The notes under the pieces: generated by a model
What the model was told of the DNA's origin: nothing
Seen by the model: the letters and a program-made list of their open reading frames with translations, nothing else
Database searches by the model: none
Made by a program: the position numbers and the translations under genes
Origin: Halorubrum xinjiangense
GTDB lineage: Archaea > Halobacteriota > Halobacteria > Halobacteriales > Haloferacaceae
Direction: 5' to 3'
Assembly: GCF_900102375.1 (NCBI RefSeq)
Contig: NZ_FNBO01000001.1
Span: 310,001 to 374,000 of the forward strand
Length of the DNA stretch: 64,000 nt
Part shown: positions 7,761 through 31,684 of the stretch, in pieces
Layout of the letters: the number at the start of each line of letters is the position of its first letter
Numbering within the stretch: the first letter of the stretch is position 1

Positions 7761-7772
7761 GCGGCCAGTGGA

Positions 7773-8335: not shown

Positions 8336-8532
8336 TATCTGAATCAATACACGAAATTTGAATTAAAAACACGCAGTTCTCATCGACCAGCTGTTTCAAG
8401 AGATGATATGCCTAAAAATAGGATTTCAACAGCGCCTTTTCTGTTTAAATTGCCAGAAAACACGTGTTAGCAGACAAATAAAACCGTTTAATGTGCCGCC
8501 GAACCCTCTTCGGTGACTCGGTTCTCTCTCAA

Positions 8533-8706
8533 TTACCGTCGTTTCAGACGGATGATTGTGAGATCCCAGTCTGGCATTGATTCATCATTATCAAGAAGTT
8601 CATACCCACAATCGCTTACGCTCACTCCATTCTGGTATGCCCGCCGGACAAGTTTGTCAAGGGATCCCTCTAATTCGGCTTTCGTACTTGGAGACCACTC
8701 ACTCAT
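8533..8706 (-). CDS. Small acidic protein paired with the HalOD1 gene
   Basis: 57 aa, short enough to be missed by length filters. Its ATG (8704-8706) overlaps the TGA of the HalOD1 gene by 4 bases (ATGA), which strongly argues for coupled translation. The protein begins MSEWSPSTKAELEGSL, has an amphipathic helix (DKLVRRAYQNGVSV) and ends MPDWDLTIIRLKRR. There is no membrane segment; one Cys (SDCGYELL). Codon use matches the HalOD1 gene. Function unknown; it may be a partner of the HalOD1 protein. Confidence 0.65.
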   Translation of the reverse strand: MSEWSPSTKAELEGSLDKLVRRAYQNGVSVSDCGYELLDNDESMPDWDLTIIRLKRR

Positions 8707-8954
8707 TGGACAGATACGGAGCCGTCGCCGCTAACTGTAATTTCGTACCCGTTGTAGGGGAATGTCACTTGACCTTCCATTCTATCACCGGTCGGCGTAC
8801 TGGCGAAGATCTGATTCAAGGCCTCGGGGTCGATTACTTCATTGAGCGGGGGAGTAACTTCGACAGGGTCAACGTCTTCTACTTCGGCTACTCGCGTAAC
8901 TACTTCATAAGTTACATTATCGACGTGCGCTGTTGCGGCATTTAATTGGGCCAT
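8703..8954 (-). CDS. HalOD1 output domain protein
   Basis: 83 aa, ATG at 8954. It is a stand-alone HalOD1 domain (PF18545) seen as VTYEVVTRVAEVEDVDPVEV, PPLNEVIDPEALNQIF, a short glycine turn, and the final strand pair VTFPYNGYEITVSGDGSVSV. HalOD1 domains occur as C-terminal outputs of haloarchaeal signalling proteins and as short orphan genes. The molecular target is unknown. It is followed by the coupled 57-aa gene. Confidence 0.85.
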   Translation of the reverse strand: MAQLNAATAHVDNVTYEVVTRVAEVEDVDPVEVTPPLNEVIDPEALNQIFASTPTGDRMEGQVTFPYNGYEITVSGDGSVSVQ

Positions 8955-9033
8955 AAACCACTGTAGGCTCTCGATCCTTATGAAACTATTGGATATTTGA
9001 TAACTTCCAGAGCGACTTAAGAGGGTCTGGAAA

Positions 9034-9522
9034 TTAGCCAGAATCCTCTTCTTCCGTAAACTCTTCGCCGAAGTGGTTGTACGGGTTGGTGTGTTCCTGT
9101 TTCATCATCTCCATCCGCTCAATATCAACGCCAAGTGAGTCCAGAGCTTCAAGGGTATCCTCAATGTCTTCTGACGTGCGGCCCACTACTTCCAGCGACA
9201 GGTTCTCGTTGTTCGTCAATAGCTCTCGGATACTGACGATACCAGATACCTCCATGAGGTCGTCAACCATCTCTTCTCGTTCTTGGAGGGGGACTGTCGC
9301 GGTCACGAGGAGGTGGTGACCTAACCCCGTTTCACTGTACATTATGATGGGTTGATAACTGAGAATGACACCACGCTCCTCAAGACGGTTAATTCGATTA
9401 GCAACCGTACTGGACGAAACACCGACTTTCTCAGCCATGTCCTCGGTCGTATTGCGTCGGGCATCTTTCTGAAGAAGGTACAGGATGCCTTTATCCACGT
9501 TGTCGAGTTCCTTGGAAACCAT
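9034..9522 (-). CDS. Lrp/AsnC-family transcription regulator
   Basis: 162 aa, ATG at 9522. The N-terminal winged helix-turn-helix is LDNVDKGILYLLQKDARRNT, then TEDMAEKVGVSSSTVANRIN and RLEERGVILSYQPII. The C-terminal RAM-like alpha/beta domain runs from about residue 65 to 145 (HHLLVTATVPLQ, VSIRELLTNNENLSLEVVG), with an acidic tail. Family members are dimers or octamers that sense small ligands such as amino acids. GC content is lower than in the flanking core genes, consistent with the islet. The target genes are not evident; the adjacent Tat and HalOD1 genes are candidates. Confidence 0.85.
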   Translation of the reverse strand: MVSKELDNVDKGILYLLQKDARRNTTEDMAEKVGVSSSTVANRINRLEERGVILSYQPIIMYSETGLGHHLLVTATVPLQEREEMVDDLMEVSGIVSIRELLTNNENLSLEVVGRTSEDIEDTLEALDSLGVDIERMEMMKQEHTNPYNHFGEEFTEEEDSG

Positions 9523-9719
9523 CTTTAGAATTTAGAGGTCACATCGGAAAATCGTTTTCCCAGTAGCCACCAGATCAGCTCCTTGAACTGGCTGAGCTGT
9601 TGGTAGTCAATACGCAGGCATATTCTAACGGTTAGTACAAGCATCAAACGGTGAAAATAACGCAATCCTCGTGCTGACTACAACCTCTGTATCTCGCACG
9701 CAGCTTGTGTCAGTTCGAA

Positions 9720-9733
9720 GGATTTCAACAGAG
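9720..9733. repeat. Right inverted copy of the islet-end motif
   Basis: GGATTTCAACAGAG, the reverse complement of the left-end motif starting at 7773. Together the two enclose 1.96 kb containing four AT-richer genes. No transposase gene lies between them, so this is either a decayed composite unit or two independent remnants. Confidence 0.45.
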
Positions 9734-9749
9734 CCGGATAGTAGATTAT

Positions 9750-11141
9750 CTAAAACGGTCCCTTACCGCCGCCCATCATGTCGCCGAGACCGCCGCCCTC
9801 GCCGCCCATCTTCTTCATCATGCGCTGCATGTCGCCCTCGCCCATCCCCTGGAACTGACCGATCGTCTCCTCCATCATCGAGTGCTGCTCTAAGAGCTGC
9901 CGGACCGTCTCCTCGTCGGTGCCGGAGCCGCGGGCGATGCGCTCGACGCGCGACTGGCCGACGACGCGGGGGTTCTCTAACTCCTCCTCGGTCATCGAGT
10001 CCATGATGCGCTCGAAGCGGCGCATCCGGTCTTGGGTGACGTCCATCGCGTCGTCCGGGAGCTCGTCCATCATCCCGCCGCCGAGCCCGGGGATCATGTC
10101 CATCACCTGGTCGAGCGGCCCCATCTTGTTCATCGCGTCCATCTGCCGTTTCATGTCCTTCAGGGTGAACTCCCCCTTTAGCATGTCTTCCGGGTCCCAG
10201 TCTTCGTCCTCCTCCTGGGTCTCCTGCATCGCGCGCTCGACGCGCTCGGAGAGCTGTTTTAAGTCGCCCATCCCGAGCAGGCGGGAGATGAACCCAGACG
10301 GCTCGAAGCGCTCGATGTCCTGCACCGTCTCGCCGGTCCCGAGGAAGGCGATCGAGGAGTCGGTCTCGTTGACCGCGGTCAGCGCCCCGCCGCCCTTCGC
10401 GGTCCCGTCGAGCTTGGTGATCACGACGCCCTCGATGCCGATCGACTTCTCGAACTGGCGGGCCTGATCCTTCGCGCCCTGCCCGATCGCGGCGTCCAGG
10501 ACGAGCAGCGAGCGGTCGGGGTCGACGACGCCCTCGATCTCTTCGATCTCGGCGATCAGGTCGTCTTCGAGCGCGTGCCGGCCCGCCGTGTCGACGATGT
10601 GGACGTCGGCGTCGGCCGTCTCTTCGAGGCCGGTGCGGGCGATGTCGACCGGGTCGTCGTTGTCGGGGTTCCCGTAGAAGTCGACCTCCGCGCGCTCGCA
10701 CATCTGCTTCGCTTGGTCGTACGCGCCGGGGCGGAAGGTGTCCGTCTGGATCACCGCGGGACGGAGCCCCTTCTTTGAGAACCACCAGGCCATCTTCGCC
10801 GCGGAGGTGGTCTTCCCCGACCCCTGGAGGCCGGCCAGCAGGATCGTCTGGTTCTCTAAGGGGAGCTCAGTGGAGTCGCCGACGAGCTCGACCATCTCCT
10901 CGTAGACGATCTTGAGGACGTGGTCCTTCGCGGTGGTGCCGCCGGGCGGCTCCTCTTCGAGCGCGCGGGACTTGATCGAGTCCGACAGCTCCATCACGAG
11001 GGAGACGTCGACGTCGGCGGAGAGGAGCGAGCGCTGGATCTCCTTGACGATCTCCTCGACGTCGCTCTCTGAGAGTCGGGACTTCCCTTGGAGCTTATTG
11101 AGGCTGCTCCGCAGGGACGTGCCGAGGTCGTCGAGTACCAT
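9750..11141 (-). CDS. srp54: Signal recognition particle GTPase SRP54
   Basis: 463 aa, ATG at 11141. The N domain (about 1-90: [20 protein letters not shown]) is followed by the G domain with [15 protein letters not shown] (P-loop), [35 protein letters not shown] and LGTGE. The methionine-rich M domain (from about 330: [13 protein letters not shown]) carries the signal-sequence groove and the RNA-binding helix-turn-helix ([21 protein letters not shown]), and ends in a GGM-rich tail. It binds 7S RNA and targets ribosomes making membrane and secreted proteins. The SRP RNA gene was not found here. Confidence 0.96.
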
Positions 11142-17585: not shown

Positions 17586-18143
17586 TTATTTTTCGATATT
17601 ATATTTTTTATCGGAGTGTAGGATCCTGTGACAGTTCGCACAGAGCGGGATACACCGTTTGATTTCCTCCAAAATTCGCTGTTTTGATGCGGAATTCGAT
17701 AACAACGTGGATATAGAATCGCCTTTCTCAATGCCTTCTGGATGGTGGAAGTCAATAGTTGCTGGATGATCTTCCCCGCATTCTACACACTGATACTGTG
17801 GTTTGATTTCATTTCTGTACCACTCACGTATTTTTTGCTTGCGTTTATTGGATCGTTCTATTTCCTCTTCTCGGTTTTTGTAGTAATACCGTTGGTACGA
17901 TGTTAAATTGGACCAGTTGGTGTCATCTGGAAGAGATATAGAGACTGGCTTCTGATCAATTGAGTTCTTGTTTTTCAAACACTCATCACACAATTTTCTT
18001 TGCGAGTTTTTATCGTAGAATTCCGTGGCACAATTTAGACACGTTCGGTTAGGTAGTGGAGAATCATGTGCTTGAGTATGGTGTCGTCTAACACCGGTTT
18101 TACCATCGAATCCGGTATTTCCACAGGTTGGGCAGACAGCCAT
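17586..18143 (-). CDS. HNH endonuclease with zinc fingers
   Basis: 185 aa, ATG at 18143, AT-rich and unlike the neighbours. The N-terminus has a C2H2-like finger (CPTCGNTGFDGKTGVRRHH), then a second zinc knuckle (CLNCATEFYDKNSQRKLCDEC). The C-terminal nuclease has QYQCVECGEDHPATIDFHH, EIKRCIPLCANCHRILH: the HNH/His-Me pattern with CxxC zinc ligands and the DFHH and CHRILH catalytic histidines. Such proteins are common in haloviruses and integrated elements and can be homing or packaging nucleases. It is consistent with the mobile remnant at this locus. Confidence 0.85.
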   Translation of the reverse strand: MAVCPTCGNTGFDGKTGVRRHHTQAHDSPLPNRTCLNCATEFYDKNSQRKLCDECLKNKNSIDQKPVSISLPDDTNWSNLTSYQRYYYKNREEEIERSNKRKQKIREWYRNEIKPQYQCVECGEDHPATIDFHHPEGIEKGDSISTLLSNSASKQRILEEIKRCIPLCANCHRILHSDKKYNIEK

Positions 18144-18338
18144 ACGAGTCCGGGATTCACGCTGACATATAAATTTACTAGAATTTTAAACGCGGAGAAC
18201 CACAAATAATTGATATTTGTGTGTGGTTTGGTATCTCTTCTGAATCTGGATTTGTTTAAATTGTTTTCTGTACGTATAGACGATATCGAATAGTCCCTGG
18301 CGGCGGTGGTATTTCGATTTTTGAATCTTTGAGTGAAC

Positions 18339-18890
18339 CTACTTGCTCAACGCCACTCGAAGCCAACAGGTGAGCCCCACGGTAAGAAAGCCCGCGATGA
18401 CGAGAGACATCATGACAATGAGAATCGTCTCAACTATGCCAGAGCCTAGAGAGAAAATCATGAAAAAAGCGGCTGAAACGAACACACCACCGGTCGTTAT
18501 TTTGAGGCTTCTAGCCGTCTCATCATCGTGATCGCCCAAGCTCATCAAGACTGACTCTCCGGCATCAATCCTTCTTAATGCGGAGATAATGCCATGAAGG
18601 TATAGAAGTGGAATCGCGATGGTGAGCACAATAGTCGGTGAGAGTCCAATGACCCTGATCAGGTCGTTGATCCAGCCGTTGGCAATGATGACTGCCACAA
18701 GGAGGACAGTTAGTGCGAAAGCAGTGAGCAGGAGACCCATTCCTTCAATTCGATTAAGCGATTCTGACCACTCAGTTTTCTCAGCCTCCATCCTGACCTC
18801 CGAGGCAAAGTTCTGAACGATATCGCTGCCCGGCAGCAGAATTGCTTTCAACAGATCTAGGACGTCCGGGCGAGGGTCAGAATTAGACAT
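18339..18890 (-). CDS. Four-helix membrane protein of the integrated remnant
   Basis: 183 aa, ATG at 18890, overlapping the stop of the upstream HTH gene by 8 bp. A soluble N-terminal segment (about 1-45, SEVRMEAEKTEWSESLNRIE) precedes four hydrophobic helices at about 48-70, 79-103, 131-150 and 154-178. The loop between helices 2 and 3 is charged (RRIDAGESVLMSLGDHDDE). No enzyme motif is seen. It is co-transcribed with the HTH protein and may be an effector or immunity-type membrane component. Function unknown. Confidence 0.65.
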   Translation of the reverse strand: MSNSDPRPDVLDLLKAILLPGSDIVQNFASEVRMEAEKTEWSESLNRIEGMGLLLTAFALTVLLVAVIIANGWINDLIRVIGLSPTIVLTIAIPLLYLHGIISALRRIDAGESVLMSLGDHDDETARSLKITTGGVFVSAAFFMIFSLGSGIVETILIVMMSLVIAGFLTVGLTCWLRVALSK

Positions 18891-19917
18891 AACGATTCAT
18901 GGACTCCTGACCGTCTCCGTTCTGCGACCCATCAGACGAAGCGTGGGGGATAAGAATTCCCTTCTTGACCTCAACAAAGAGACCTGAGTAGATGAACCAC
19001 TGGTACAAGCGCTTGGCTTTAGTGCTCACCGTACTCTCACTCCAGCCCTTATCGTACTCGTCATTGACTTCTGCCATCAACTCCTGATTTCGAAACTCCT
19101 CATTTGGTGCCAGTTCACAGTATTCTTGAACTAAATTCACGTTCCAGAGGGCATCCCGAATGAGTTGCTTCCGTTCCTCGTCTGACGCCCGGAGAACCTT
19201 TTCACCGAACTCGGTCAAGACAACGTCTCCAGCGTCTTTTTCAGCAATACCCAGCGAATAGCAGGTGGATAGAAGCTTGCTGGCGTAGCTATCTGAAAAG
19301 TCAAAGTGTTCGGCTAGTTCTGTTGAACTCTCGATCCCAGCGTCAATCATGGGTAGTGCTTCGAAGACCAGTTCCGGTCTCACCTTGGGGTACCCAGAAC
19401 TCTCGTCTTTTGGACCCCGCCGCTGGTTACGTTCGGTGTCGGGAGGTTTCTCGGAGTAGAGCGTCTCATTCCCTGCGAATCCTAGTCTTAGGTAGTCGAT
19501 CCAGTTGGCGTAGACACGGCCATATGTTTTGAATGTCCCACTGTCGATCGCCTTTGAATCAGTGTGAAAGGCAATGAGTCGGCCAATTCGCTCAGTGGAC
19601 ATCTGACCGCCGTTTAATTCATCAAGAATTTCACTCACTGCGGGCAGCTCAACAAACCTCTCTTTTAGTACGGTTCGATCTTCCAGTTGGAAGAATTTCA
19701 TCACGTCATCTTGGTCACGGATAGTATACTCGCCGTTTTCGCGTCCAAGAAGACCGAGAGCCGTAGGATCATGAACACGATTATGAACGGTCCTCTCACC
19801 GACGTCCATCGCGTCGGCCAGTTCTTCCTGGGTGGTGTTCCCCTTGACAACGGCACGGAGAACCTCTATTGTCGAGCGAGGACCTTGATAGAGCCGGGGG
19901 AATCCATTCTTACGCAT
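18883..19917 (-). CDS. Two-HTH regulatory protein of the integrated remnant
   Basis: 344 aa, ATG at 19917. The N-terminal winged HTH is TIEVLRAVVKGNTTQEELAD with AMDVGERTVHNRVHD. A central helical segment (MSTERIGRLIAFHTDSKAID, TYGRVYANWIDYLRLG) and a second winged HTH near residue 195-245 (STELAEHFDFSDSYASKLLS) follow. The C-terminal region has STVSTKAKRLYQWFIYSGLF. It resembles the AAA-associated/restriction-linked haloarchaeal HTH proteins, but I cannot name the family. A TATA-like AAATAAAT sits about 20 bp before the ATG, overlapped by a 12-bp inverted repeat, suggesting self-control. Confidence 0.7.
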   Translation of the reverse strand: MRKNGFPRLYQGPRSTIEVLRAVVKGNTTQEELADAMDVGERTVHNRVHDPTALGLLGRENGEYTIRDQDDVMKFFQLEDRTVLKERFVELPAVSEILDELNGGQMSTERIGRLIAFHTDSKAIDSGTFKTYGRVYANWIDYLRLGFAGNETLYSEKPPDTERNQRRGPKDESSGYPKVRPELVFEALPMIDAGIESSTELAEHFDFSDSYASKLLSTCYSLGIAEKDAGDVVLTEFGEKVLRASDEERKQLIRDALWNVNLVQEYCELAPNEEFRNQELMAEVNDEYDKGWSESTVSTKAKRLYQWFIYSGLFVEVKKGILIPHASSDGSQNGDGQESMNRYV

Positions 19918-20413
19918 TTGTGTACCACCTCCATTTATTTGAATCCTGTGGCCGCCTATTTCGTTTTTGAGCGTTCGAGAGCCGTTTGAAGCGGCCCACG
20001 CAAGAAAGGTATGAAGAAGTATGGAGGTGGTAAAATGAAGAAAGGACCGTAAGTGGGAGAATAAAGAGCTGTTAGATGTGAAACCGAGGGGATCATGTCA
20101 ACAGACCCGGGCTAGCTCGCTTATCACAGATAGGTCATTCTAGCTTTTCCTCAATTTTACCCAGATTCCACCTCTTTCTTTGTCTCTACCACCACCGCGC
20201 CAATCGCTAGTATCTATATTGCTTGTCCAAACGCCCTGTTAGAGTGGGAGAGAAAATGAAGCTGTGGTAACTTGATTGGTTCAGAAATCGATCCAACGAG
20301 AAGACAAAGAATCAGGCATAAAAAGCCAGTTTACGCTTTGAAGTGTACTTCAATTCAACAGTTTGCCGTAATCGTAACCAACGCGTGTTCTTAGTATTTA
20401 TTTTTTGATATTT
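19918..20413. promoter_or_regulatory. AT-rich intergenic region with 12-bp inverted repeat
   Basis: About 500 bp without a convincing gene. TACCACCTCCAT at 19923-19934 and its exact complement ATGGAGGTGGTA at 20021-20032 flank an 86-bp spacer. The first arm lies inside the core promoter of the HTH gene, a likely operator position. Around 20391-20413 an AT-rich run (TATTTATTTTTTGATATTT) is the likely promoter of the integrase fragment. The rest (20040-20390) shows no structure I can interpret. Confidence 0.5.
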
Positions 20414-21064: not shown

Positions 21065-21655
21065 CTACGCTCCTTCTTCGATCCGGTCGAACCGCTCCTC
21101 GAAGTTCTCTCGACAGGAGCCACAACAGAAGTGGTACAGCGTCCCGTCGATCCGGGCCGACTCCCCCTCGGCGGTGACGGTGTTGCCGCACTCGACGCAC
21201 TCGACCGCGAGGTCCGCGTCGCCGACCGCGGGCGACCACTCGTGGGCGTCGAGCGGCCGCACCGACAGTTCCTCAACGGTCTCCAATCCGACCGCGTCGT
21301 CGACGAGGTCGCGGGCGCTTCCCTCCTCAACGCGCGCGACGACCGTCACCTCGCCGTCGGCGGTGAGGAACGCGTGTTCGACGCGCTCATGGCCCGCGAC
21401 CGCCTCGTGGACGCGCTCGGCGTCCGCGGGCGCGACGGCGAGCGTCGCGAGGACCCGCAGCCCGTCGGAGAGCGCGTCGCCGTCGATCCGGAGGGTGAAC
21501 CCCTCGATGACGCCCACCTCGCGGAGCCGATCGACGCGGTCGGACACCGCGGGCGCCGACAGGTCCACGCGCTCGGCGATGTCGCTGTACGGGCGCCTGG
21601 CGTCGGAAAGCAGCAGTCGGATGATCTCTCGGTCCGTCTCGTCGAGGGTGCGCAT
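21065..21655 (-). CDS. Lrp-type regulator with TRASH metal-sensing domain
   Basis: 196 aa from ATG 21655 (MRTLDETDREIIRLLLSDAR); an extended frame upstream is not needed. N-terminal AsnC HTH (YSDIAERVDLSAPAVSDRVD), central RAM-like domain, and a C-terminal TRASH domain VECVECGNTVTAEGE with YHFCCGSCRENFEERF. The cysteines form a treble-clef metal site typical of haloarchaeal copper/heavy-metal regulators. It is divergent from a copper-chaperone-like HMA gene, which is a likely target; a CopA-type ATPase is not in the window. Confidence 0.88.
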   Translation of the reverse strand: MRTLDETDREIIRLLLSDARRPYSDIAERVDLSAPAVSDRVDRLREVGVIEGFTLRIDGDALSDGLRVLATLAVAPADAERVHEAVAGHERVEHAFLTADGEVTVVARVEEGSARDLVDDAVGLETVEELSVRPLDAHEWSPAVGDADLAVECVECGNTVTAEGESARIDGTLYHFCCGSCRENFEERFDRIEEGA

Positions 21656-21799
21656 GGCCGGGCGTTCGACCGGCGCGGGCAAAAGCCGTCCGGCAGGCGG
21701 GGGGTCAGAGAGAACGGGCCGGACCAGCGGCGTCCGGAAAACCGGTCGGCCTCGGGGGCGACGGAAAGGCAGTTGTGCCCGCGGCGCCTACGGCCGCGC

Positions 21800-21994
21800 A
21801 TGACGACGATAGATGTCGACGGCATGTCGTGTACCGGCTGCGAGGACAACGTGACCGACGCGCTCGGCGAGCTGCCGGGCGTCGAGTCCGCGAGCGCCGA
21901 CCACGAGGCGGGCACCGCGACGGTCGAGGGCGACGTCGACGTGGACGCGGTCGTGGCCGCCATCGAGGACGCCGGCTACGAGGCGTCGGCGTAG
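21800..21994 (+). CDS. Heavy-metal-associated (HMA) domain copper chaperone
   Basis: 64 aa, ATG at 21800. It is a single HMA fold: MTTIDVDGMSCTGCEDNVTD carries the MxCxxC metal site, followed by VESASADHEAGTATVEGDVD and AVVAAIEDAGYEA. Such proteins carry Cu(I) to a P-type ATPase or buffer it. It lies divergently from the TRASH regulator with 144 bp between starts. It is too short for any ATPase, and no ATPase follows. Confidence 0.9.
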   Translation: MTTIDVDGMSCTGCEDNVTDALGELPGVESASADHEAGTATVEGDVDVDAVVAAIEDAGYEASA

Positions 21995-22121: not shown

Positions 22122-23360
22122 TCAGGCGCGGTTGTCGCCTCCTTCGTCCGGCGTTGCCTCGCCACCGCCCGTCGATCGGGAGGCGGTCTCCCGGCCGTCC
22201 CCGTCCTCGATCACGTCGGCGGCGGCGCCGTGCTCGTCGTCCGGCGAGTCGCCGTCCATCGAGAGAGACGAGTCGGTCGCAGTCGAGTCCGCCGCCGGCG
22301 CGGGCGGGCGGTAGGTGTAGAGGAACTCGCCGGAGACCGCGTGGAACGCGCCGGTGTCGGGGTCCTCCACGACGCCGGTGTCGTTGTCGATCGCGAAGTC
22401 GACGAGGTCTCGCAGCGATCCCGCCTCGGCAGTCGGACGCTCGTGGACCGAGGCCGGGAGCCGGACCGTCGTGATCCACTCCGCGAACTCCGAGCGGTCG
22501 TCGCGGTACGAGAGGTACTCGCGCTCCGCGGGCGTGAGCGCGAGCTCGTACTCCCACCTCGCGTACCCGACTCCGCCGGCGCCGACGAGGCCGACGAGCA
22601 GGAGGAGCGGGCCGCCGAACGACCGGAGCACGCCGTACTCTCGCTCGACGGTCACCTGCTCGGTCCGCTCCGTGGTGTCGGACTGGACGCCGGGCTCGGA
22701 GACGGAGTAGGTGTCGCCGCCGTGGTCGAGCGTCATGTCGAGCGTCTGCGTCGACGCGGTCGGGACCCCGCCGATCGACCCGTCGACCGTCACCTCCGTC
22801 CTAACGAACGTCTCCGTCTCGCCGGGGGAGGCGCCGAGTTCGTCTTCGATCGACGCCACGCGCTCGTCTATCGCCGTGCTGTTGAGCGCGAACGAGGCGT
22901 TCACCGTCTCGCCGGGCGAAACGCTCGAGGACGTCTCCGACGCGAGCGGCTCCGTCTCGCGCCAGTAGACGGTCCCCTCCTCCCCGACGTTCCGCATCAC
23001 GAGCGTGGAGCCGACCTCGACGGTCACGCTCTCGGCGGTCGGCGCGGCGTAGCTGGTCGCCACGGTCACGTCCAGTTCGGGGGCAACCCGCGCGAAGTAC
23101 GTGTTTCGCTCGTCGAGCACCGTGCCAGTCTCGAAGACGGCGTTCGGCTCCGTCACGGTCGCGCTGTGGCGGTACTCGCTCTCGACGGTGAGCGACGAGA
23201 CGGTGCGGCTCTCCGTCTCCGTCCCGGGGTCGACGTGCGTCGTGTACGCGAGCCCCGCCCCGACCGCGACGAGGAGGAGACAGACGACGAGGATCGCGGT
23301 GGACTGTGCGTTCAAGACGGCGCGGAGTCGGAGTCGACGTTCGTCGTGAGCTGAAGACAT
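22122..23360 (-). CDS. DUF5305 membrane-anchored surface protein
   Basis: 412 aa, ATG at 23360, three bases after the signal-peptidase stop. An N-terminal membrane helix (about 20-42, AILVVCLLLVAVGAGLAY) is followed by a large extracellular beta-rich domain (about 50-230; SLTVESEYRHSATVTEP, YFARVAPELDVTVATSY) typical of DUF5305. A second helix (about 240-262, LLLLVGLVGAGGVGYA) and a cytoplasmic C-terminus of 140 aa with an acidic end follow. In haloarchaea DUF5305 genes are next to signal peptidase I and DUF1102 genes, as here. An accessory role in export or assembly is inferred. Confidence 0.85.
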   Translation of the reverse strand: MSSAHDERRLRLRAVLNAQSTAILVVCLLLVAVGAGLAYTTHVDPGTETESRTVSSLTVESEYRHSATVTEPNAVFETGTVLDERNTYFARVAPELDVTVATSYAAPTAESVTVEVGSTLVMRNVGEEGTVYWRETEPLASETSSSVSPGETVNASFALNSTAIDERVASIEDELGASPGETETFVRTEVTVDGSIGGVPTASTQTLDMTLDHGGDTYSVSEPGVQSDTTERTEQVTVEREYGVLRSFGGPLLLLVGLVGAGGVGYARWEYELALTPAEREYLSYRDDRSEFAEWITTVRLPASVHERPTAEAGSLRDLVDFAIDNDTGVVEDPDTGAFHAVSGEFLYTYRPPAPAADSTATDSSLSMDGDSPDDEHGAAADVIEDGDGRETASRSTGGGEATPDEGGDNRA

Positions 23361-23363
23361 GTG

Positions 23364-24527
23364 TCACCTGTAGAGCTCGCGGAGGAGTCGCTTGTAGAGC
23401 GGGGGGCGCTCGCGGGAGTCGCGCGACCGGATCCGGGCGGGCTCGCCGCGCAGGAGCAGCAGCCCGATCCCGACGATACCGCCGCCGAGCAGCCCGTTTA
23501 TCGCGACGAGCGGGGCCCAGGGGTGAACCCCGTACAGCTCGTCGACGACGCCGGGCGGCAACACCGCGAGGTAGCGGTGTTCGACGACGAACAGGCGGTA
23601 GTACCCCGTCTCGTCGGGCGCGGACAGCGTCACCGTCGTCGACGCCTCGCCGCGACTGCCGACCGAGAGCCGCTGCGGGTCGACGTCGACGCCCGGGCTC
23701 GCGGGCGTGACGTACGCGTACACGGGGACGAGTCCGGCGTTGGGGACGACGTACTCGAGCTCCTGGCTCGTGCCGCTCTCGATGACGGTCGGGTTCTCAG
23801 ACTCGAACTCGGCGCTCACGACGCCGTACTCCTGTGTCCCACCCGGGACGACCATCGCCGCGGTTGCCGTCGCCATTAATACGAGCGCCAGCACGCCGAG
23901 GATCGCGAACACGGAGGTGCCGTCGTCGCGCGAGCGGTCGCGCGAGTCCCGGTCGCGCGAGCCGGCGTTGAGGTACCAGTCGACCGCGTACGCGACGACC
24001 GACAGCCCGAAGACGATGTACGCGAGCCCCTGCGTGCCCTGGAGCGAGCGGACGCCGAACGTCACCGCCAGCTGCGTCTGAACGGCGTCGAGTACGGACT
24101 GGAACCCCATGGCGACGGTCCCGAGGTGGGGGATCACGACGACGCTCCCGCCGACCTGAAGCGCCTTCGCCACCACGTCCGCGTCCTGAACGACCGGCTC
24201 GCCGCCGTCCTGATCGGTGAACGGATTGTTGTCCCCGCGGGTGATATAGCCGCGCTCGGTCTCCTCGACGACGCGGTGAGTCGTCAGCCCGCCGCCCTGG
24301 ATCTCCTGTGCGTCGAACGTCACCACGTCGCCGGAGCCGATCCCGCCGGCGATCTGGGCCGGGATCGCGACGAACCCGTCGCCGGGGTTGAGCGTCGGCT
24401 GCATGCTCCCGGTCTCGACGTAGCTGAGGAGGATCGGCTGGCCGAGGAGCTGCCCGACGACGAGCGAGACGACGACCAGCACCGCGGCCGCCTGAAGGGC
24501 CACGGACAGCGTTCGGTTGATGGACAT
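23364..24527 (-). CDS. Signal peptidase I (archaeal/SipW-type, S26)
   Basis: 387 aa, ATG at 24527. After an N-terminal membrane helix the catalytic serine box is YVETGSMQPTLNPGDG, then SGDVVTFDAQ, THRVVEE (the His that replaces bacterial Lys in archaeal/ER-type enzymes) and YITRGDNNPFTDQDGG. Two further helices and an extra C-terminal beta domain (about 220-340; ESENPTVIESGTSQELEYV) distinguish it from a minimal type I enzyme. The gene neighbours (DUF5305 and DUF1102 proteins) suggest it is dedicated to the local secreted proteins rather than general secretion. Confidence 0.9.
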   Translation of the reverse strand: MSINRTLSVALQAAAVLVVVSLVVGQLLGQPILLSYVETGSMQPTLNPGDGFVAIPAQIAGGIGSGDVVTFDAQEIQGGGLTTHRVVEETERGYITRGDNNPFTDQDGGEPVVQDADVVAKALQVGGSVVVIPHLGTVAMGFQSVLDAVQTQLAVTFGVRSLQGTQGLAYIVFGLSVVAYAVDWYLNAGSRDRDSRDRSRDDGTSVFAILGVLALVLMATATAAMVVPGGTQEYGVVSAEFESENPTVIESGTSQELEYVVPNAGLVPVYAYVTPASPGVDVDPQRLSVGSRGEASTTVTLSAPDETGYYRLFVVEHRYLAVLPPGVVDELYGVHPWAPLVAINGLLGGGIVGIGLLLLRGEPARIRSRDSRERPPLYKRLLRELYR

Positions 24528-24676
24528 GGTGTCGGGCTCGGCTCGGAGACTATCTCGCAGCGGGCGCCGCCGCGAAACGGTTCGTGTCGTTCGTACGTCA
24601 GGTGGCCGTCGATAGCTGAACGGCGGCGTGCCCTAATAAGTTCGTGGGTGGAGGCGAGTCCGGAGGGTGGGGACGG

Positions 24677-25576
24677 TCACTCGTCGAAGACGCCGGCCGC
24701 GAGCAGCGCGAACGGGCCGATGAAGCCGAGACAGAAGCCGAGCAGGTGGACGTACAGGTTCACGACGCCCCCGCCGCCGACGGGGTCGGACGGGAAGCCG
24801 ACGACCGGGTAGCCGACGACCACCACCGCGCCGACGGCGAGCAGGTCCCCGTAGCCGGGGCGCGCCGCAAGCGATTTCACCCCTGGCCGAACCGACCGCG
24901 GGAACCGCACCCCGCTGCTGGCTGCGTACAGGACCGCGAGGAGCGCGCCGGCGACGACAATCGCGAGCCCCGCCTGTCCGTCGCCCTCGGTCGAGACCGG
25001 CAGGGCCAGGAGCGCGATCCACCCGACGAGCGCGAAGAAGGCCGCGGGCAGCGCGCCGACCGAGGCCGCGGGCGCGAACCGGTCGCGGGCGTAGCAGAAC
25101 CACAGGATCGGGAGCAGGCCGGCGAGCGCCATGTTGACGCCGGAAAAGCCGAAGCCGACCGCGTCCCGCGGGACGGCGAGGTTCAGCGCGGACAGCGCGA
25201 ACGGGAAGGCGAGGAGGAAGGCGACGAGCGCCGTGAAAAAGAGCCGGCGGCGTCCGCTCAGGACCGCGAGCGCGTAGCCGACCCCGGCGAGGAGGCCGTA
25301 CCCGGCGAGGTTCCCGAGGAGGTGGTCCGCGCTCAGGTGGACGTAGTGGGCGGTGAACGCGGACAGCGCGGTCGGATCCGCGTAGGCGAACGCAAGCGAC
25401 CGCCGGGTCGCTTCCGGCAGCGCGAAGACCGCGAGGAGGACCGCCGGCACCGCGAGCAGGACGAGCAGGTCGATCGCGCGGACGCTCGCGAGCAGCTCAC
25501 GGCGGAACGCGCGGTCCGTGCGCCGGTCGGCGGCGTCGGCAGCGCGGTCCCCCGCGTCTGTCGCGGACGGTGTCAC
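24677..25576 (-). CDS. Rhomboid-family intramembrane serine protease
   Basis: 299 aa, with about seven membrane helices. Rhomboid landmarks: TAHYVHLSADHLLGNLAGY (helix-2 H and N), GFGFSGVNMALAG (GxSG catalytic serine, about residue 155) and NLYVHLLGFCLGFIGP (catalytic His in the last helix). It cleaves within or near membrane segments of substrates. An extended disordered N-terminus (about 1-25) is Asp/Arg rich. It sits between the signal peptidase and the DUF1102 genes, so a role in processing the local surface proteins is possible. Confidence 0.88.
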   Translation of the reverse strand: MTPSATDAGDRAADAADRRTDRAFRRELLASVRAIDLLVLLAVPAVLLAVFALPEATRRSLAFAYADPTALSAFTAHYVHLSADHLLGNLAGYGLLAGVGYALAVLSGRRRLFFTALVAFLLAFPFALSALNLAVPRDAVGFGFSGVNMALAGLLPILWFCYARDRFAPAASVGALPAAFFALVGWIALLALPVSTEGDGQAGLAIVVAGALLAVLYAASSGVRFPRSVRPGVKSLAARPGYGDLLAVGAVVVVGYPVVGFPSDPVGGGGVVNLYVHLLGFCLGFIGPFALLAAGVFDE

Positions 25577-25691
25577 GCGCTCGAAAAGGTCGACCAGCGG
25601 TTAAGAGCTGTCGGCGCGCGTCTCGGCGGTGACAGCCGGGGAGCGCCCCACACCAGTCGAGACGAGAGGCCGTCCCGGGAACCGTCGGCCC

Positions 25692-27308
25692 TCACGAGCG
25701 CGGCATCCGGCGGAACAGCGCGAGGGTAGCCACGGCGAGGGCGACCGCACCGAGCAGTCCGCCGAGTTCCACGAAGTCGATCCCGCCGGGCTCCTCGGTC
25801 GGGCCGTCGCCGGCGTCGGATTCGTCCGTCCCGCCGGATTCGTCCGTCCCGCCGGATTCGTCCGTCTCCCCGGCTCCATCCGTCCCGCCGGCTCCGTCCA
25901 TCTCGCCGGCTCCGTCCGCCCCGGCGGAACTCCCCTCGTCGCCGCCCGCGGAGTCGTCAGCCGGGTCCCCGACGAGCAGCGTGCCGACCGGGGTGCCGTC
26001 GACCGCGAGCTCGTACGCGCCGGCGGTCTCGACGGTCGCGTCGAACGCCACCGTCGCCGTCTCGTTGGGCGCGAGCGCGACCGTCTCGTTCGCGATCGGG
26101 TCGCCGTCGGCCGTCAGCGTCACCGCGCGCTCGCCCGCCGCGCCGCCCCCGTTCCGCACGGTCGCCCGGACGGTGGCGTTCTCGCCGGGGTCGATCGCCT
26201 CGGGGGCGAGCGTCGCCTCGATCACGTCGAACCGGGGCTCGCGCGCCGCGACCGCGAACGTCGAGAACTCCGTGGTCCGCGCGCGGAAGTGGACGCGGTC
26301 CTCGGGGAGTCCGAGGATCTCCACGACATCCTCGTCGACGACCTCGACGGGCTTCGCCTCCCAGTCGCCCGCGTCCGTCTGCCGGTAGAGCGTCACGTCG
26401 GCGGGGTCGGTCCCGGTCTCGTTGAGGTGGGCTGGGTCCGCGCTGAACCGGATCGTCATCGCGTCGACCGCGTCGGGCGCGAAGTCGTAGTCGAGCGCGA
26501 GGTACCCGACCGGCCGGGGGCGCGTCGGCGCGGTCAGCGCGCTCCCGTTCGCGACGGGGTCCGGACTCCCCGCTGCGGTGAGTTCGACGCGCTCGTTCCG
26601 GACGCCCTCTAAGTCGATCCCTTCGAGCGTGACATCGTCGCGGTCGAGCTCCATCCCCTCGGCGCGGAACCGGACCTCCTCGCCGCGGTCGACGTCGCTC
26701 GCGACGAATCCGCGGTGGGTCGCGTTCGGGGACGTGACCGTCGTTGTCGCGCCGCCGCCGTCGGTCTGCTGTGTCGACGCGCCCGTTCCCGCCATTTCGT
26801 CGGGCTCCGCGATCTTCGCCTCGATGGAGAACTCGTCGGCGCCCAGTTGCGTCCCGGCGGCCTTCCCACGCGTGTCGAGCGCGAGGCCGATCGTGACCGT
26901 CTCGTTTGGCGCGAGCGTGACGTTGTTCGCCTCGCCCTCGATCGAGTCGCCGTCGGCGACGAAGGTGACGTTCTCGCTCGCGTACTCGATCCACACGTGC
27001 GCGTACTCATCGGCCGTGTACGTGATCGTGAACACGTCGTCGATCGTACCGGTCGAACCGACGTTGACGCCCTCGAAGGAGGGGTCCTTGATATTCGGAT
27101 TCGACGCCGAGACGTCGATCGCGATCTCGTCGTTGTCATTTAAGTAGGCGTACCGCCCGTTCGGGCCGTCGGCCGGTTGGACCGCGAGGTCTCCGTCGGC
27201 GACGGTGTCGGCCGGACCGTCGATCACCGCCGCACCCGTGGCGAACGCGAGCGACCCTGCGGCTACGAGCAGCAGGGCGAGGGTCAGGGTGCGGCGGGTG
27301 GTAGGCAT
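25692..27308 (-). CDS. DUF1102-like secreted protein with C-terminal anchor
   Basis: 538 aa from ATG 27308 (MPTTRRTLTLALLLVAAG, a Sec or Tat-like signal). N-terminal DUF1102-like domain (about 25-165; TYTADEYAHVWIEYASENVT, NNVTLAPNETVTIGLALDTR), a PGF-pre-PGF-like region (about 290-370, VHFRARTTEFSTFAVAA), a CARDB/Ig-like domain (about 375-450, NPGENATVRATVRNGG-like), an Asp/Gly/Thr-rich linker of GGTDESGGTDES repeats, and a final membrane helix (VELGGLLGAVALAVATLALF). It is probably a cell-surface protein spanning the S-layer, and the largest member of the local family. Confidence 0.8.
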   Translation of the reverse strand: MPTTRRTLTLALLLVAAGSLAFATGAAVIDGPADTVADGDLAVQPADGPNGRYAYLNDNDEIAIDVSASNPNIKDPSFEGVNVGSTGTIDDVFTITYTADEYAHVWIEYASENVTFVADGDSIEGEANNVTLAPNETVTIGLALDTRGKAAGTQLGADEFSIEAKIAEPDEMAGTGASTQQTDGGGATTTVTSPNATHRGFVASDVDRGEEVRFRAEGMELDRDDVTLEGIDLEGVRNERVELTAAGSPDPVANGSALTAPTRPRPVGYLALDYDFAPDAVDAMTIRFSADPAHLNETGTDPADVTLYRQTDAGDWEAKPVEVVDEDVVEILGLPEDRVHFRARTTEFSTFAVAAREPRFDVIEATLAPEAIDPGENATVRATVRNGGGAAGERAVTLTADGDPIANETVALAPNETATVAFDATVETAGAYELAVDGTPVGTLLVGDPADDSAGGDEGSSAGADGAGEMDGAGGTDGAGETDESGGTDESGGTDESDAGDGPTEEPGGIDFVELGGLLGAVALAVATLALFRRMPRS

Positions 27309-27405
27309 GGGCAAGTCACCTTTCAAATAATTATTTAAACATGGATAACGGCACTGAGCCGAAAATCAGATTTAGGGAAAAGAAACCCCACAATTTGGAA
27401 GTTTT

Positions 27406-28020
27406 TTATGTATCTGATTTTCTGTGGCTAGGCAGTTCCTTTTCAGTTGCTGTACTCTCCAGAGAGATCTCTCCGGAGATGTCATCATGCGCCTCATCCG
27501 CAGTAACGCGGAATGCTATGTTTATCGGGTTCCCCGGTGTGATGTTTCGAGCCGTTATACCCGCTTCGCTCTGTGAGTTATCAACTGTGAACTGTTTTTT
27601 GTTCTGGCCGGTTGGCTGCCAGCTGAAGAACCATCGCATAGAGGAACTTCCTATGTTGTCCTGATCCCAGCTATAACTGAACTCAACATTTTGAGCCTGC
27701 GAGCCTTTGTTCATCACTTGAATTGTAGGTGTAACGACCTTACTGGAAGGGTTCCAATCGCCGAACTCGTGAGTTGAGCCGGCTTTTACCCCCTCGTCGT
27801 CATCTCCTTCTGCGGCGTCAATGGTTAACCTGCCGTCATCAATTTGGATCGTGTCTCCCGAATAGGGGACCCTCAGCGATAGTAGCGCCTCGTTATCAGG
27901 GACGACTTTGATCGACACTTGCCGTTCAATTCGGGCGGTACTGAAAGCACCAGTTCCCATGGCCGACGCGCCTCCTCCAGTAGCAGCGGCCAAACCGAGT
28001 AGATAGGTTCGGCGCTTCAT
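27406..28020 (-). CDS. Secreted DUF1102/TasA-like subunit 1
   Basis: 204 aa, ATG at 28020. Signal MKRRTYLLGLAAATGGGASA, then the motif GTGAFSTARIER shared with two other proteins of the cluster (GTGALETSASER, GTGAFSSVEAER). The mature part is beta-rich with a DUF1102-type order (SIKVVPDNEALLSL, VVTPTIQVMNKGSQ, NVEFSYSW, NPINIAFRVTADEAHDD). There is no C-terminal anchor; the end is hydrophilic (KELPSHRKSDT). It is probably processed by the adjacent signal peptidase and could be a fibre subunit. Confidence 0.75.
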   Translation of the reverse strand: MKRRTYLLGLAAATGGGASAMGTGAFSTARIERQVSIKVVPDNEALLSLRVPYSGDTIQIDDGRLTIDAAEGDDDEGVKAGSTHEFGDWNPSSKVVTPTIQVMNKGSQAQNVEFSYSWDQDNIGSSSMRWFFSWQPTGQNKKQFTVDNSQSEAGITARNITPGNPINIAFRVTADEAHDDISGEISLESTATEKELPSHRKSDT

Positions 28021-28054
28021 TTGAGGAGGTGTTGGATGTAGCTAGTAGCCTGTA

Positions 28055-28666
28055 TTACGAGTCGGATCCGAGCACATCCGAGAGTTTAGCTTGATTGCCA
28101 CCGGTAGCAGCGTGAATAGTCAGCGTTCCACCGACATTACCCGTCGTACCATCATCTTTTGTCTCAATAGTCATATCGACATCAACTTTGTCAGGCTGGA
28201 CAAGCTTTGGCACGTTAGCCGTATCACTGTAGTCTTCGGCACGTAGAGAAGTTCCACCAGAGATATCATCTGCCTCACTTCCTTCTGCCGTGAGTTCAAT
28301 ATTTTCTAATTCGAAGCCAGTTGCTTCGATAACGACATACAGATCGCCTTGTCCAGCGCCATTCCTAACGCTGAATACCTCTTCAAAAGTGAACGTTGAG
28401 TCGGGGTTGAGCCCCTGAGCATCGCCAGCGATAACCCCAAGGCCAGAGTCACTGTTGAAATCCAGTTCGAGCTGACCATCGCTAGTACCAGAAGCGTACG
28501 TACTGTTCTCTGCCGCAATCTCAACGAAACCAGAACTGTCAGCAGCGACGTTCACATTAACCGTCCGCTCGGATGCGGAGGTCTCAAGAGCCCCCGTACC
28601 TACAGCAGCCGCACTACCCGTAGCCAATGCGCCCAGTCCGGCGATGAACTTGCGTCGGTTTGCCAT
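28055..28666 (-). CDS. Secreted DUF1102/TasA-like subunit 2
   Basis: 203 aa, ATG at 28666. Signal with RRKFIAGLGALATGSAAAV, then GTGALETSASERTVNVNVA, the cluster's shared post-signal motif. A mature beta-sandwich-like domain follows (SGFVEIAAENSTYA, TFEEVFSVRNGAGQGDLYVV, VDVDMTIETKDD). It has no membrane anchor. Strand order and size fit the camelysin/TasA/DUF1102 superfamily. The gap to subunit 1 is 34 bp, so both are probably on one transcript starting in 28667-29102. Confidence 0.75.
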   Translation of the reverse strand: MANRRKFIAGLGALATGSAAAVGTGALETSASERTVNVNVAADSSGFVEIAAENSTYASGTSDGQLELDFNSDSGLGVIAGDAQGLNPDSTFTFEEVFSVRNGAGQGDLYVVIEATGFELENIELTAEGSEADDISGGTSLRAEDYSDTANVPKLVQPDKVDVDMTIETKDDGTTGNVGGTLTIHAATGGNQAKLSDVLGSDS

Positions 28667-29102
28667 TGTTGTTTACCTCGTTGACCGCACACGACCCGCG
28701 AGCCGTCGACGCGAGACATCCCGCGTCACCCGGGGTCGCTCTACTTCACCCATGGGGCCTATCCCATATCGTTATGAATTTCCAGAAACAGTTCCGGGCG
28801 AGACTGAAACCTCGGTCGCCCGGTTCCGCCCCCACCTGAATCCGGGGTGGATCGGTTCAAGCCGATCCTGAGACCGCGTTCAGGCCCGTCCTGAAACGAC
28901 AATCAGGGCTTTTTCGGCGCGGTTATAATTACTATAATATGATAGTAAGGAGTCAAAATTCGTATCTGCGAGGCGTATGACCCCATTTATCGGGTTCTTA
29001 GCCCGTGAAACGCGGGAAATCGCGTTCGAACTGGCTACGCTTTGAACGGCGAGAAAGTTTAGCAGATTATCATAACCACGGGATTTATGTTGGCCGATTC
29101 AT
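28667..29102. promoter_or_regulatory. Divergent control region of the DUF1102 locus
   Basis: 436 bp between the minus-strand DUF1102 genes and the plus-strand HTH gene. It contains an AT-rich core (TTATAATTACTATAATATG near 28922-28940), an inverted repeat TTCAGG-CCCGT-CCTGAA at 28879-28895, and a CCTGA-type repeat series at 28836-28916 (CCTGAATCC, GATCCTGAG, CAATCAGGG). ATTTATG at about 29081-29087 lies 16-22 bp before the HTH start. A shared operator for a locus regulator is plausible. No small gene is evident. Confidence 0.5.
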
Positions 29103-29699
29103 ATGTGTCTGACAGAAATGGCGTCGGCACAGCAGATCGACGGGGGAGGGGCAGAACCGGCGACGGAGGTGTCCGAAGACGAGCTGTTCGACGTGCTGGC
29201 GAACCAGCGGCGACGGTTCGCAGTCCATCTGCTGAAGCGGGAGGAGAAAGAGCGGTTCGAGATCGGCGACATGGCCGAACAGATCGCGGCGTGGGAGAAC
29301 GGGATCGACACGGCCGAGATCACGGGCGACGAGCGCAAGCGCGTGTACACTGCGCTCCAGCAGTCCCACCTGCCGAAGATGGACGACGCGGGCGTCGTCG
29401 ACTTCAACAAGGACCGCGGCGTCGTCGAGCCGACGCCCGCGATCCAGAACGTCGATTTATATATGGACGTCGTCGAGGGGAAGGAGATCCCGTGGAGCAC
29501 CTACTACCTCGGGCTCTCGGGCGTCGCCGTCGCGCTCACCGGCGCGGTGTGGCTCGGCGCGTGGCCGTTCATCCTGCTGCCCGACATGGCGTGGACGGTC
29601 GCCATCGTGGTCGCGTTCGCGTTCTCCGCGATCACGCACAAGTACTACACCGCGGAGATGAAGGTCGGCGAACCGGACGAACCGCCGGAACTGACGTAG
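29103..29699 (+). CDS. DUF7344-type HTH membrane regulator
   Basis: 198 aa from ATG 29103; MASAQQ at 29118 is the alternative start. The N-terminal winged helix (SEDELFDVLANQRRRFAVHL, VYTALQQSHLPKMDDAGVVD) is typical of haloarchaeal DUF7344 regulators, and VVDFNKDRGVVEPT closes the wing. Two membrane helices follow (about 133-150 and 155-178). It is probably a membrane-tethered transcription regulator. Its position between the DUF1102 genes suggests control of that locus. Confidence 0.82.
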   Translation: MCLTEMASAQQIDGGGAEPATEVSEDELFDVLANQRRRFAVHLLKREEKERFEIGDMAEQIAAWENGIDTAEITGDERKRVYTALQQSHLPKMDDAGVVDFNKDRGVVEPTPAIQNVDLYMDVVEGKEIPWSTYYLGLSGVAVALTGAVWLGAWPFILLPDMAWTVAIVVAFAFSAITHKYYTAEMKVGEPDEPPELT

Positions 29700-29802
29700 G
29701 GCGGGCAGTTTCAAGCGGCGCCTGTCAGGGATTCCGGCGCCGCATAACCTTAGGATCCGGACGCGTTGTGTCGAGTGAACGAACCGTGCGACCCCATCGT
29801 AA

Positions 29803-30636
29803 ATGAAACGACGAAACCTCATCCTGCTGCTCGGCGGCGCGAGCTCCGGCGCGATGAGCGTCGGCACCGGCGCGTTCAGCAGCGTCGAGGCCGAGCGCGG
29901 CGTAGAGGTGAACGTCGTGGAGGACGAAAACGCGTATCTGGGGCTGGAAGAAGGATCTGGCGAGGGGTTCGTCCGGATCAAAAACCAGTTCGCTGGAGAC
30001 CTCGGTCTGACCGTGACCGCGGCGCTTCCGTCGAGCGAGGGCGAAGTCGAAATCGAAGCCGAAGAGAACGACGAAATCGAGATCGAAGTCGAATCTGACG
30101 GAGGTGACGAGAAAGACGGCGACGACGATTCTGTCGGCGTGGATATTCCGACAGGTGAGTCCGCCAACGTGATCGCCGAATGCGACGAGGACGGATCGCT
30201 GGATCTCAAACTCACTTTTACAGGCGAAGTCGACGAAACTGGGACGAGCGTGGACAAAACGCGGACGTTCACAGTCGAGTGCGAGGAAGACGACGACGAA
30301 GCCAACGAGGACGTGACGGACAAAGTCGAGAAAGTGAAATTCTTCGGAAGCGCGGAGAAAGTCCGCGTCCTTACGACCGAGAACGACGGCGGCGGCAACG
30401 GGAGCGACGGAACCGTTAGTGCGAAACTGTACTGCGGCGACGAGGGGAATACCGAGAGCGAGAGCTTTGAGACGGTCCATGTGAACGAAGATTTGTGGAT
30501 AGATAATTTCGATGACGACGATCTCGAGGGCCCCATCGCAGGAGTGGAGGTCGAGGGAATCGGCGTCTTCGAGAATCCGGATCCCGGGAGCGGAAATACC
30601 GTTGACGAAGCCCATCCCAGCGACGATTCATCCTAA
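29803..30636 (+). CDS. Secreted DUF1102/TasA-like subunit 3
   Basis: 277 aa, ATG at 29803. Signal MKRRNLILLLGGASSGAMSV, then GTGAFSSVEAERGVEVNVV, the third copy of the cluster motif, and DENAYLGLEEGSGEGFVRI, the classic DUF1102 opening. The domain is interrupted by very acidic stretches (EGEVEIEAEENDEIEIEVES, about 85-105). Two cysteine pairs may form disulfides. No C-terminal anchor. It is opposite in strand to subunits 1 and 2 and may be an alternative or capping subunit. Confidence 0.78.
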   Translation: MKRRNLILLLGGASSGAMSVGTGAFSSVEAERGVEVNVVEDENAYLGLEEGSGEGFVRIKNQFAGDLGLTVTAALPSSEGEVEIEAEENDEIEIEVESDGGDEKDGDDDSVGVDIPTGESANVIAECDEDGSLDLKLTFTGEVDETGTSVDKTRTFTVECEEDDDEANEDVTDKVEKVKFFGSAEKVRVLTTENDGGGNGSDGTVSAKLYCGDEGNTESESFETVHVNEDLWIDNFDDDDLEGPIAGVEVEGIGVFENPDPGSGNTVDEAHPSDDSS

Positions 30637-30706: not shown

Positions 30707-30982
30707 TCATCTCTCCGCATGTTCCGTATCGAAATCCGCTGCCTCGTCGAGTTCCGCTCGCGCGAACTCCCGGATCCGCTTTGTGTCCTCGGCGCTCACG
30801 TCGACCGCCTGCGCGCTCTCGATCTGTCCGTTCACGACCGCGTTCTGCTGTGGGCCCCACACCTCCGGCGGCTGTGCTTTGATGTACTCGGCCCACCGGA
30901 TCACCTGCTCGTAACGGGGCGGTCGCTCGGGACCGTCGTCAGCTCCGGCCGAGCCCTTCTCAGGCGTTCGTGAGTCGCTCAT
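30707..30982 (-). CDS. Small protein coupled to a nucleotidyltransferase-like gene
   Basis: 91 aa, ATG at 30982, overlapping the end of the upstream gene by 23 bp. Helical: RYEQVIRWAEYIKAQPPEVW, QQNAVVNGQIESAQAVDVSA, ending TKRIREFARAELDEAADFD. No membrane segment. The overlap and size resemble the second gene of a toxin-antitoxin pair. Function unknown. Confidence 0.6.
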   Translation of the reverse strand: MSDSRTPEKGSAGADDGPERPPRYEQVIRWAEYIKAQPPEVWGPQQNAVVNGQIESAQAVDVSAEDTKRIREFARAELDEAADFDTEHAER

Positions 30983-31562
30983 AGCGGTCCTCGACGTCGA
31001 GTCGTTCGACCCACGTTTCGAGCCGGTCCCGGGAAAGCGTTTCTCCGAAGAGGGTGTAGAGGTGCGCGGCGTCTTCGAGGTCGGTTCGACCGCCGAGCGA
31101 GAGCTTGTACGCGATCTGGAGTTCCAGCGGTCCGATGGGAACCGTGCGGTCGCCGACGTGCGCGTCCACGGCGTTCGCGAGGGACGCGTCGTCGAACTCG
31201 TCGCTCGGGAACTTCACCTCGAGGTGCGGCGTCATCTCGCCATCCGGAGCGACCCAGATATTCGTCCCTTTAGAGAGGTTACCGTACATCTCGGAGAGCG
31301 GCATCGCGGGGCCCCAGTATCCCTCCTGTTCCAGTTCGGCGACGAGTTTGTCGATCCGCTCGGCGGGACAGCGCTCGATGAACACGTCGATGTCCTCGGT
31401 CGACCGCGATCGGCCGGCGAGGATCGCGACGTAGCCGGCGACAAAGACGTGGTCGATATCGAGTCGAGAGAGAATCTCGGAGAAGCCGACCGCAAGTTCG
31501 TCGAGCCGGTTGGGCTCGCGGTCGACGACGAGTCCACGATCGGTGAGTTCGACACCGGTCAT
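30960..31562 (-). CDS. DUF6036-type nucleotidyltransferase-like protein
   Basis: 200 aa from ATG 31562 (18 bp of alternative start upstream). VFVAGYVAILAGRSRSTEDI followed by DVFIER gives the GS/G-type turn plus DxD-like Asp pair (EDIDVF) of the MNT/AbiEii nucleotidyltransferase fold, as in DUF6036. Later segments include HLEVKFPSDEFDDASLANAV and PIGPLELQIAYKLSLGGRTD with DLEDAAHLYTLF, typical of that family's C-terminal helices. With the overlapping 91-aa gene it forms a compact two-gene unit. Toxin or antitoxin role is inferred only from layout. Confidence 0.75.
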   Translation of the reverse strand: MTGVELTDRGLVVDREPNRLDELAVGFSEILSRLDIDHVFVAGYVAILAGRSRSTEDIDVFIERCPAERIDKLVAELEQEGYWGPAMPLSEMYGNLSKGTNIWVAPDGEMTPHLEVKFPSDEFDDASLANAVDAHVGDRTVPIGPLELQIAYKLSLGGRTDLEDAAHLYTLFGETLSRDRLETWVERLDVEDRYERLTNA

Positions 31563-31684
31563 ACGTGTCGGTTCACGCACCGTCTAATAAATCTCCCCGA
31601 GAACGAGCCGACGGGAGATCGCATTCGTCGCTTCTGCTGTTCCGTTCAGGTGGCCTTATGTATCCCCCGGCCGGATCCGCGAGC

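Follow-up and report, generated by a model that had tools for sequence, protein, structure and literature searches.

The 64,000-nucleotide stretch of the Halorubrum xinjiangense genome analysed here (contig NZ_FNBO01000001.1, positions 310,001 to 374,000; hereafter the window) carries at 22122-30636 what is very probably a locus for twin-arginine translocation (Tat) fimbriae, or tafi locus. A check of its open reading frames (ORFs) placed a DUF5305 protein, a signal peptidase, a rhomboid, four secreted proteins and a DUF7344 regulator all within this interval. The original prediction, made from the sequence alone, had described this clustering and proposed a fibre system of TasA/AbpA type with a dedicated peptidase; the genes lie where it placed them, and their families were matched. 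Taken as a whole, the locus is likely to make and assemble Tat-fimbriae by means of a dedicated peptidase and a rhomboid that cuts the tailed protein TafF. For this species we infer the filaments, the cleavage and its site, and any lipid attachment or anchoring. What is new here is the rhomboid, which may belong to a haloarchaeal sorting system not described before.

The fibre assignment comes from a profile of the small subunits. Eighty-six mature sequences, drawn from the 108 of an iterated profile search and headed by the window protein encoded at 28055-28666, were aligned (profile A2), and the sole match in the PDB at E<=0.001 was chain C of 9p0a (E=6.3e-19), which is entitled "Structure of Natrinema sp. 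J7-2 Tafi pilus". This match to a solved pilus chain also supports the extracellular fibre system that had been predicted, of which filaments, a matrix function and donor-strand exchange would be the presumed features here. That the proteins are instead secreted DUF1102 monomers with no role in a fibre is the least probable of the alternatives we considered: filaments in this organism are a prediction from its genes, but the solved pilus subunit belongs to the family. All four secreted proteins, which had been described as DUF1102-like, match NCBIfam models of Tat-fimbria (Taf) proteins, but Pfam DUF1102 itself matches two only (25692-27326 and 28055-28666). Against a closer assignment, every Taf match lies below its curated equivalog cut-off (best scores 36.9, 52.7 and 34.6 bits of 155 for TafE, and 55.7 of 420 for TafF); because the TafA, TafC, TafE and TafF cut-offs are all missed, we do not call the window proteins equivalogs of any single Taf protein. 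Tat-fimbriae of haloarchaea are the subject of Galeva et al. (iScience 2025, as cited in PMC12687288), and the kind of fibre is thus already known. A DUF1102 match was found in none of 14 control genomes, including that of Haloferax volcanii, which may explain why such fibres have gone unrevealed in that model organism.

Three of the secreted proteins are predicted fibre subunits: those encoded at 27406-28020 (minus strand; TafE model NF052522, E=3e-9; included in the subunit alignment), 28055-28666 (minus strand; PF06510, E=4.1e-6; TafE, 4.2e-14; TafA, 3.1e-11) and, on the regulator side, 29803-30636 (plus strand; TafE, 1.5e-8; TafC, 8.9e-6). Each has a twin-arginine signal, a feature that had gone unmentioned before, with an RR motif at its start, and twin-arginine signals are present in 163/172 Taf ORFs from the fetched loci and the window. 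As predicted, the motif GTGA(F/L)-x5-ER-x-V is exact in these three proteins, with GTGAF in the first and third and GTGAL in the second; across the same material it is exact in 27 of the 172 Taf ORFs, all of which carry a looser form, versus none of 11631 unlabelled ORFs. TasA is cut by SipW at a site with Phe at P2' (PMC10269814), and by analogy the GTG(A)F region looks like a cleavage site of this TasA/SipW type.

Donor-strand features, which the original prediction had expected, were sought by structure prediction. The AlphaFold2 (AF2) model of the 28055-28666 subunit (predicted local distance difference test, pLDDT, 77.7; predicted template modelling score, pTM, 0.76) aligned in VIA-align with 9p0a (Z 8.2), the Sulfolobus 0406 filament 7pnb (Z 7.8) and self-complemented FimA 6erj (Z 6.5); with AbpA (7ueg_A) it gave Z 8.0 and a root-mean-square deviation of 3.7 over 125 residues. 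A Z near 8 is not decisive and, to the detriment of our reading, may reflect a common fold arrangement. Foldseek alone returned no match for the subunit at E<=0.001; its high-ranking entries included FimA and AbpA (E about 0.01). With each of the three filament chains the first aligned residue of the monomer model is 17-19, and with self-complemented 6erj it is residue 1, a difference that would fit an N-terminal donor strand swapped in fibres.

The signal peptidase (23364-24527, minus strand, 387 amino acids) is of SipW/ER (endoplasmic reticulum) type with an extra C-terminal domain, and its residues S41, H84 and D99 are invariant in 38 homologues, giving Ser-His-Asp rather than Ser-Lys. We hold with good confidence that it is dedicated to the Taf subunits, as had been proposed. 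The peptidase occurs in 231 and Taf subunits in 232 of 292 genomes examined across the class; both are present in 229 and neither in 58, with the peptidase alone in two and subunits alone in three, counts that are not independent events because the species share ancestry. It is very improbable that this is a general signal peptidase found here by chance. It does pass TIGR02228, the general model for archaeal signal peptidase I (57.7 bits against a cut-off of 51.85), and misses the cut-off of the Bacillus SipW model NF046067 (33.3 of 190 bits), but in 287/292 genomes it and the Taf subunits are present or absent together, it is missing from 61, and on contig C13 its own genome holds another S26 match that scores higher (106 bits), besides weaker ones on C3 and C9. 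The agreement in 287 haloarchaeal genomes ties archaeal Tat-fimbriae to the logic of TasA.

The usual surroundings of the peptidase were examined in 80 stretches around its homologues, aimed at >=1 per genus; the sample is non-random and contains the peptidase by design. With the window and a paralogue locus from its own genome these make 82 sources, in which DUF5305 is present in 75, DUF7344 in 72, Taf-type proteins in 76 and a rhomboid in 18. The usual order is a Taf gene and the regulator, diverging from subunits, TafF, the rhomboid where there is one, peptidase and DUF5305. In the window the regulator (29103-29699, plus strand; DUF7344, PF24035, E=2.1e-30; C-terminal membrane segments) is separated from the subunit operon by a divergent intergenic region (28667-29102) which, from its position, is presumed to be a control region; the divergent layout recurs in the sampled loci. 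The DUF5305 protein (22122-23360, minus strand, 412 amino acids; PF17231, E=5.7e-57) has two membrane helices flanking an Ig-like beta ectodomain and is a putative assembly partner. Its AF2 model (pLDDT 90) matched generic Ig-like folds (best Z 8.9); a chaperone role cannot be read from these matches, and so weak a list excludes nothing. PDB profile searches with DUF5305 and with the rhomboid gave nothing useful.

These parts can be put together as follows. The subunits would be exported folded via Tat, a route suggested by their signal motif, and the SipW-type peptidase would cut at the GTG(A)F region and free an N-terminal strand. This strand may then fill the groove of the next subunit by donor-strand exchange, as the fold kinship with 9p0a, AbpA and FimA suggests. 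TafF would serve as membrane-proximal anchor or terminator, and the adjacent rhomboid, by analogy with bacterial rhombosortases, would cut its tail and either hand TafF to lipid or release it with the fibre. DUF5305 would be a membrane assembly partner, and the DUF7344 protein presumably controls expression.

The likeness to the tafi system of Natrinema sp. J7-2 lies in the subunit family, the twin-arginine signals and the encoding together of Taf-type proteins; the window proteins differ in their divergent sequences, all four being under the TafA/C/E/F cut-offs, and in the presence of a rhomboid and a tailed TafF. With TasA-TapA-SipW of Bacillus and the AbpA bundling pili of Pyrobaculum the locus has in common a SipW-type peptidase with Ser-His-Asp, a small-Ala-aromatic cleavage region and a beta-sandwich subunit matching the AbpA fold. 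However, the four secreted proteins have no TasA/camelysin match in Pfam up to E=1, their signals are of Tat type, and there are an extra rhomboid, DUF5305 and DUF7344. The TasA/AbpA-like label of the original prediction is probably right for the mechanism, but the closest relatives are the tafi proteins with their Tat signals.

The fourth secreted protein is TafF-like and combines a Taf-like domain with a C-terminal tail. Its ORF (25692-27326, minus strand) was called from a TTG; the in-frame ATG at 27308 is the likelier start, which gives 25692-27308. It contains a DUF1102 domain (PF06510), a PGF-pre-PGF domain (TIGR04213, 28.8 of 28 bits) and CARDB (PF07705), and matches the TafF model NF052523 at 4.5e-15, below cut-off. 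The tripartite tail (25695-25844, minus strand) consists of PTEEPGGI, a hydrophobic helix and RRMPRS, and is the predicted target of the adjoining rhomboid-type intramembrane serine protease (24677-25576, minus strand), which we regard as rhombosortase-like. Pfam Rhomboid has no match to the window rhomboid itself; in its family of 18 rows G-x-S145-G is invariant, H277 nearly invariant and H85xxxN89 conserved, with weak matches to TIGR03902 (rhombosortase) in 18/18 and to PF01694 in 8/18.

On balance the rhomboid probably acts on the TafF tail. By eye, TafF ends in an EPxG-type motif followed by a helix and basic residues in 17/18 rhomboid-bearing tafi loci, and a similar tail was seen in 3/20 C-terminally anchored TafF from loci without a rhomboid. 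The association extends beyond tafi. Rhomboid profile matches were found in 129/292 genomes, and 60 stretches were fetched around such matches, many of them distant from any tafi locus; of the 60 rhomboids scoring >200, 43 adjoin a gene whose product has a hydrophobic tail at its C-terminus. The motif is present in 32/119 genes flanking rhomboids that score >180, in 0/38 flanking lower-scoring ones and in 14/2331 other genes of the loci. The consensus of 42 tails is PxxEPGGF - helix - RR; the tails of L182 and L161:9993 were set aside as spurious. In named loci, mostly of Halorubrum, which also supplies the rhomboid loci nearest to that of the window, the tail adjoins a rhomboid in 37/40 (four of the 37 from a frame scan). 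A tail profile run on the 292 genomes gave 37 matches at E<=1e-7 outside the model rows, of which 28 adjoin a rhomboid found by the rhomboid profile and nine do not (assigned by hand; mostly TafF orthologues); at E<=0.01 it matches 233 genomes and is not specific.

In a tree of 78 rhomboids all 42 paired rows fall in one set of 61 (support 100/99), together with 17 unpaired and two low-scoring rows; L078 was omitted as frameshifted and L203 was added by hand as paired. Outside the order, among 294 genomes of the phylum, the best rhomboid match was 1.1e-25, and because no match beyond the order exceeds this the strong clade looks haloarchaeal. That its members usually stand beside a tailed surface protein, here TafF-like, was a further feature absent from the original prediction. 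The tailed neighbours include TafF, PKD proteins, proteins of 2100 to 3000 amino acids and one with beta-helix and Ig-like domains. When the 43 neighbour proteins were clustered, loose linkage joined 41 of them and a stricter setting gave eight clusters (34, 3 and six singletons). The idea that the neighbours form unrelated families was not borne out; most of them have CARDB, PKD or Taf domains in common, and a relationship among them is possible. The rhomboid gene of L078 (4885-5829) has an apparent frameshift, from assembly error or decay.

These observations leave room for a wider proposal, to which we give an even chance: a haloarchaeal rhombosortase-like sorting system, in which each rhomboid of the clade usually stands beside one PxxEPGGF - helix - RR surface protein that it cuts and that is re-anchored, one part of the clade having been recruited to fix the base of the Tat-fimbria via TafF and others serving giant surface proteins. 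Where a bacterial rhombosortase has one target, the two genes are generally neighbours (PMC3237569). The window likewise has a rhomboid gene beside a protein with motif, helix and basic tail, and dedicated pairs tend to adjoin in both; it differs from the rhombosortase/GlyGly-CTERM system in that its rhomboid scores 15.4 bits with TIGR03902 against a cut-off of 84, its tail is of EPGG type and its clade is haloarchaeal. GlyGly-CTERM TIGR03501 matches 2/42 tails weakly (best E=0.021), the window tail not among them, and no single NCBIfam model covers the tails. In those portions of the open-licence literature that were searched, no description of a haloarchaeal rhombosortase or of an EPGG-type tail was found; the natural substrates of haloarchaeal rhomboids are named as future work in PMC11985538. 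For a possible archaeal counterpart of rhombosortase, gene pairs with a common tail directly name candidate substrates.

Several points weigh against this proposal and against action of the rhomboid on TafF. TIGR03902 also matches 8/19 low-scoring haloarchaeal rhomboids and is therefore non-specific. Of the rhomboids scoring >200, 17/60 have no tailed neighbour; in the tafi-type loci L167, L169, L206 and L207 the TafF-like neighbour of the rhomboid lacks a C-terminal helix; L084 has a rhomboid and no motif, and in L066, L073 and partly L091 there are EPxG-like tails but no rhomboid. The rhomboid is absent from most of the tafi loci sampled, many paired loci are orthologous so that the pair counts are not independent, and membrane constraints alone can make tails alike.

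Rhomboids cut near helix-breaking, small-residue motifs, a preference that would suit a simpler account, which we consider possible and somewhat unlikely. In it TafF in the membrane, or subunits that have misassembled, would be clipped by a rhomboid acting as an ordinary sheddase or in quality control; neither sorting nor lipid attachment would take place, and the tail would simply be a good substrate. The rhomboid's absence from most tafi loci and a weak TIGR03902 match, below cut-off and not confined to the paired clade, speak for this account, but rhomboids across the 61-row clade adjoin proteins that share one tripartite tail and fall in eight sequence clusters.

Archaeosortase A and rhomboids are unrelated enzyme families. 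The window tail resembles the archaeosortase A/PGF-CTERM system in being a tripartite C-terminal signal on a haloarchaeal surface protein, and TafF has a PGF-pre-PGF domain, EPGGFG resembles PGF, the neighbour in L180 ends in a PGF motif and TIGR04126 (PGF-CTERM) matches 2/42 tails (best 1.1e-11). It is nevertheless improbable that the tail is an archaeosortase A signal lying beside the rhomboid by coincidence, since PGF_CTERM is matched neither by the window tail (up to E=10) nor by 40 of the 42 tails, and the tail type tracks the presence of a rhomboid.

A second Taf cluster lies on contig C2 of the same genome (L015, C2:120001-138000, at 4585-10170), with a TafF-like protein, two subunits, a DUF7344 regulator and a divergent subunit; the regulator-side subunit has no clear twin-arginine motif. 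Peptidase, DUF5305 and rhomboid were not found near this cluster, and because it has no peptidase of its own nearby, that of the window may serve both.

Elsewhere in the window, 21065-21994 encodes an AsnC-type regulator with a Cys-rich, metal-binding-like C-terminus opposite an ORF that ends in a heavy-metal-associated domain, by eye what looks like a copper-response pair. The G+C content falls to 0.50 at 8001-10000 and 0.49 at 18001-20000, compared with 0.62 to 0.77 in most of the window, which suggests inserted DNA. At 30707-31580, again judged by eye, two proteins encoded on one strand, a small one and one resembling a nucleotidyltransferase, are possibly a pair of toxin-antitoxin type.

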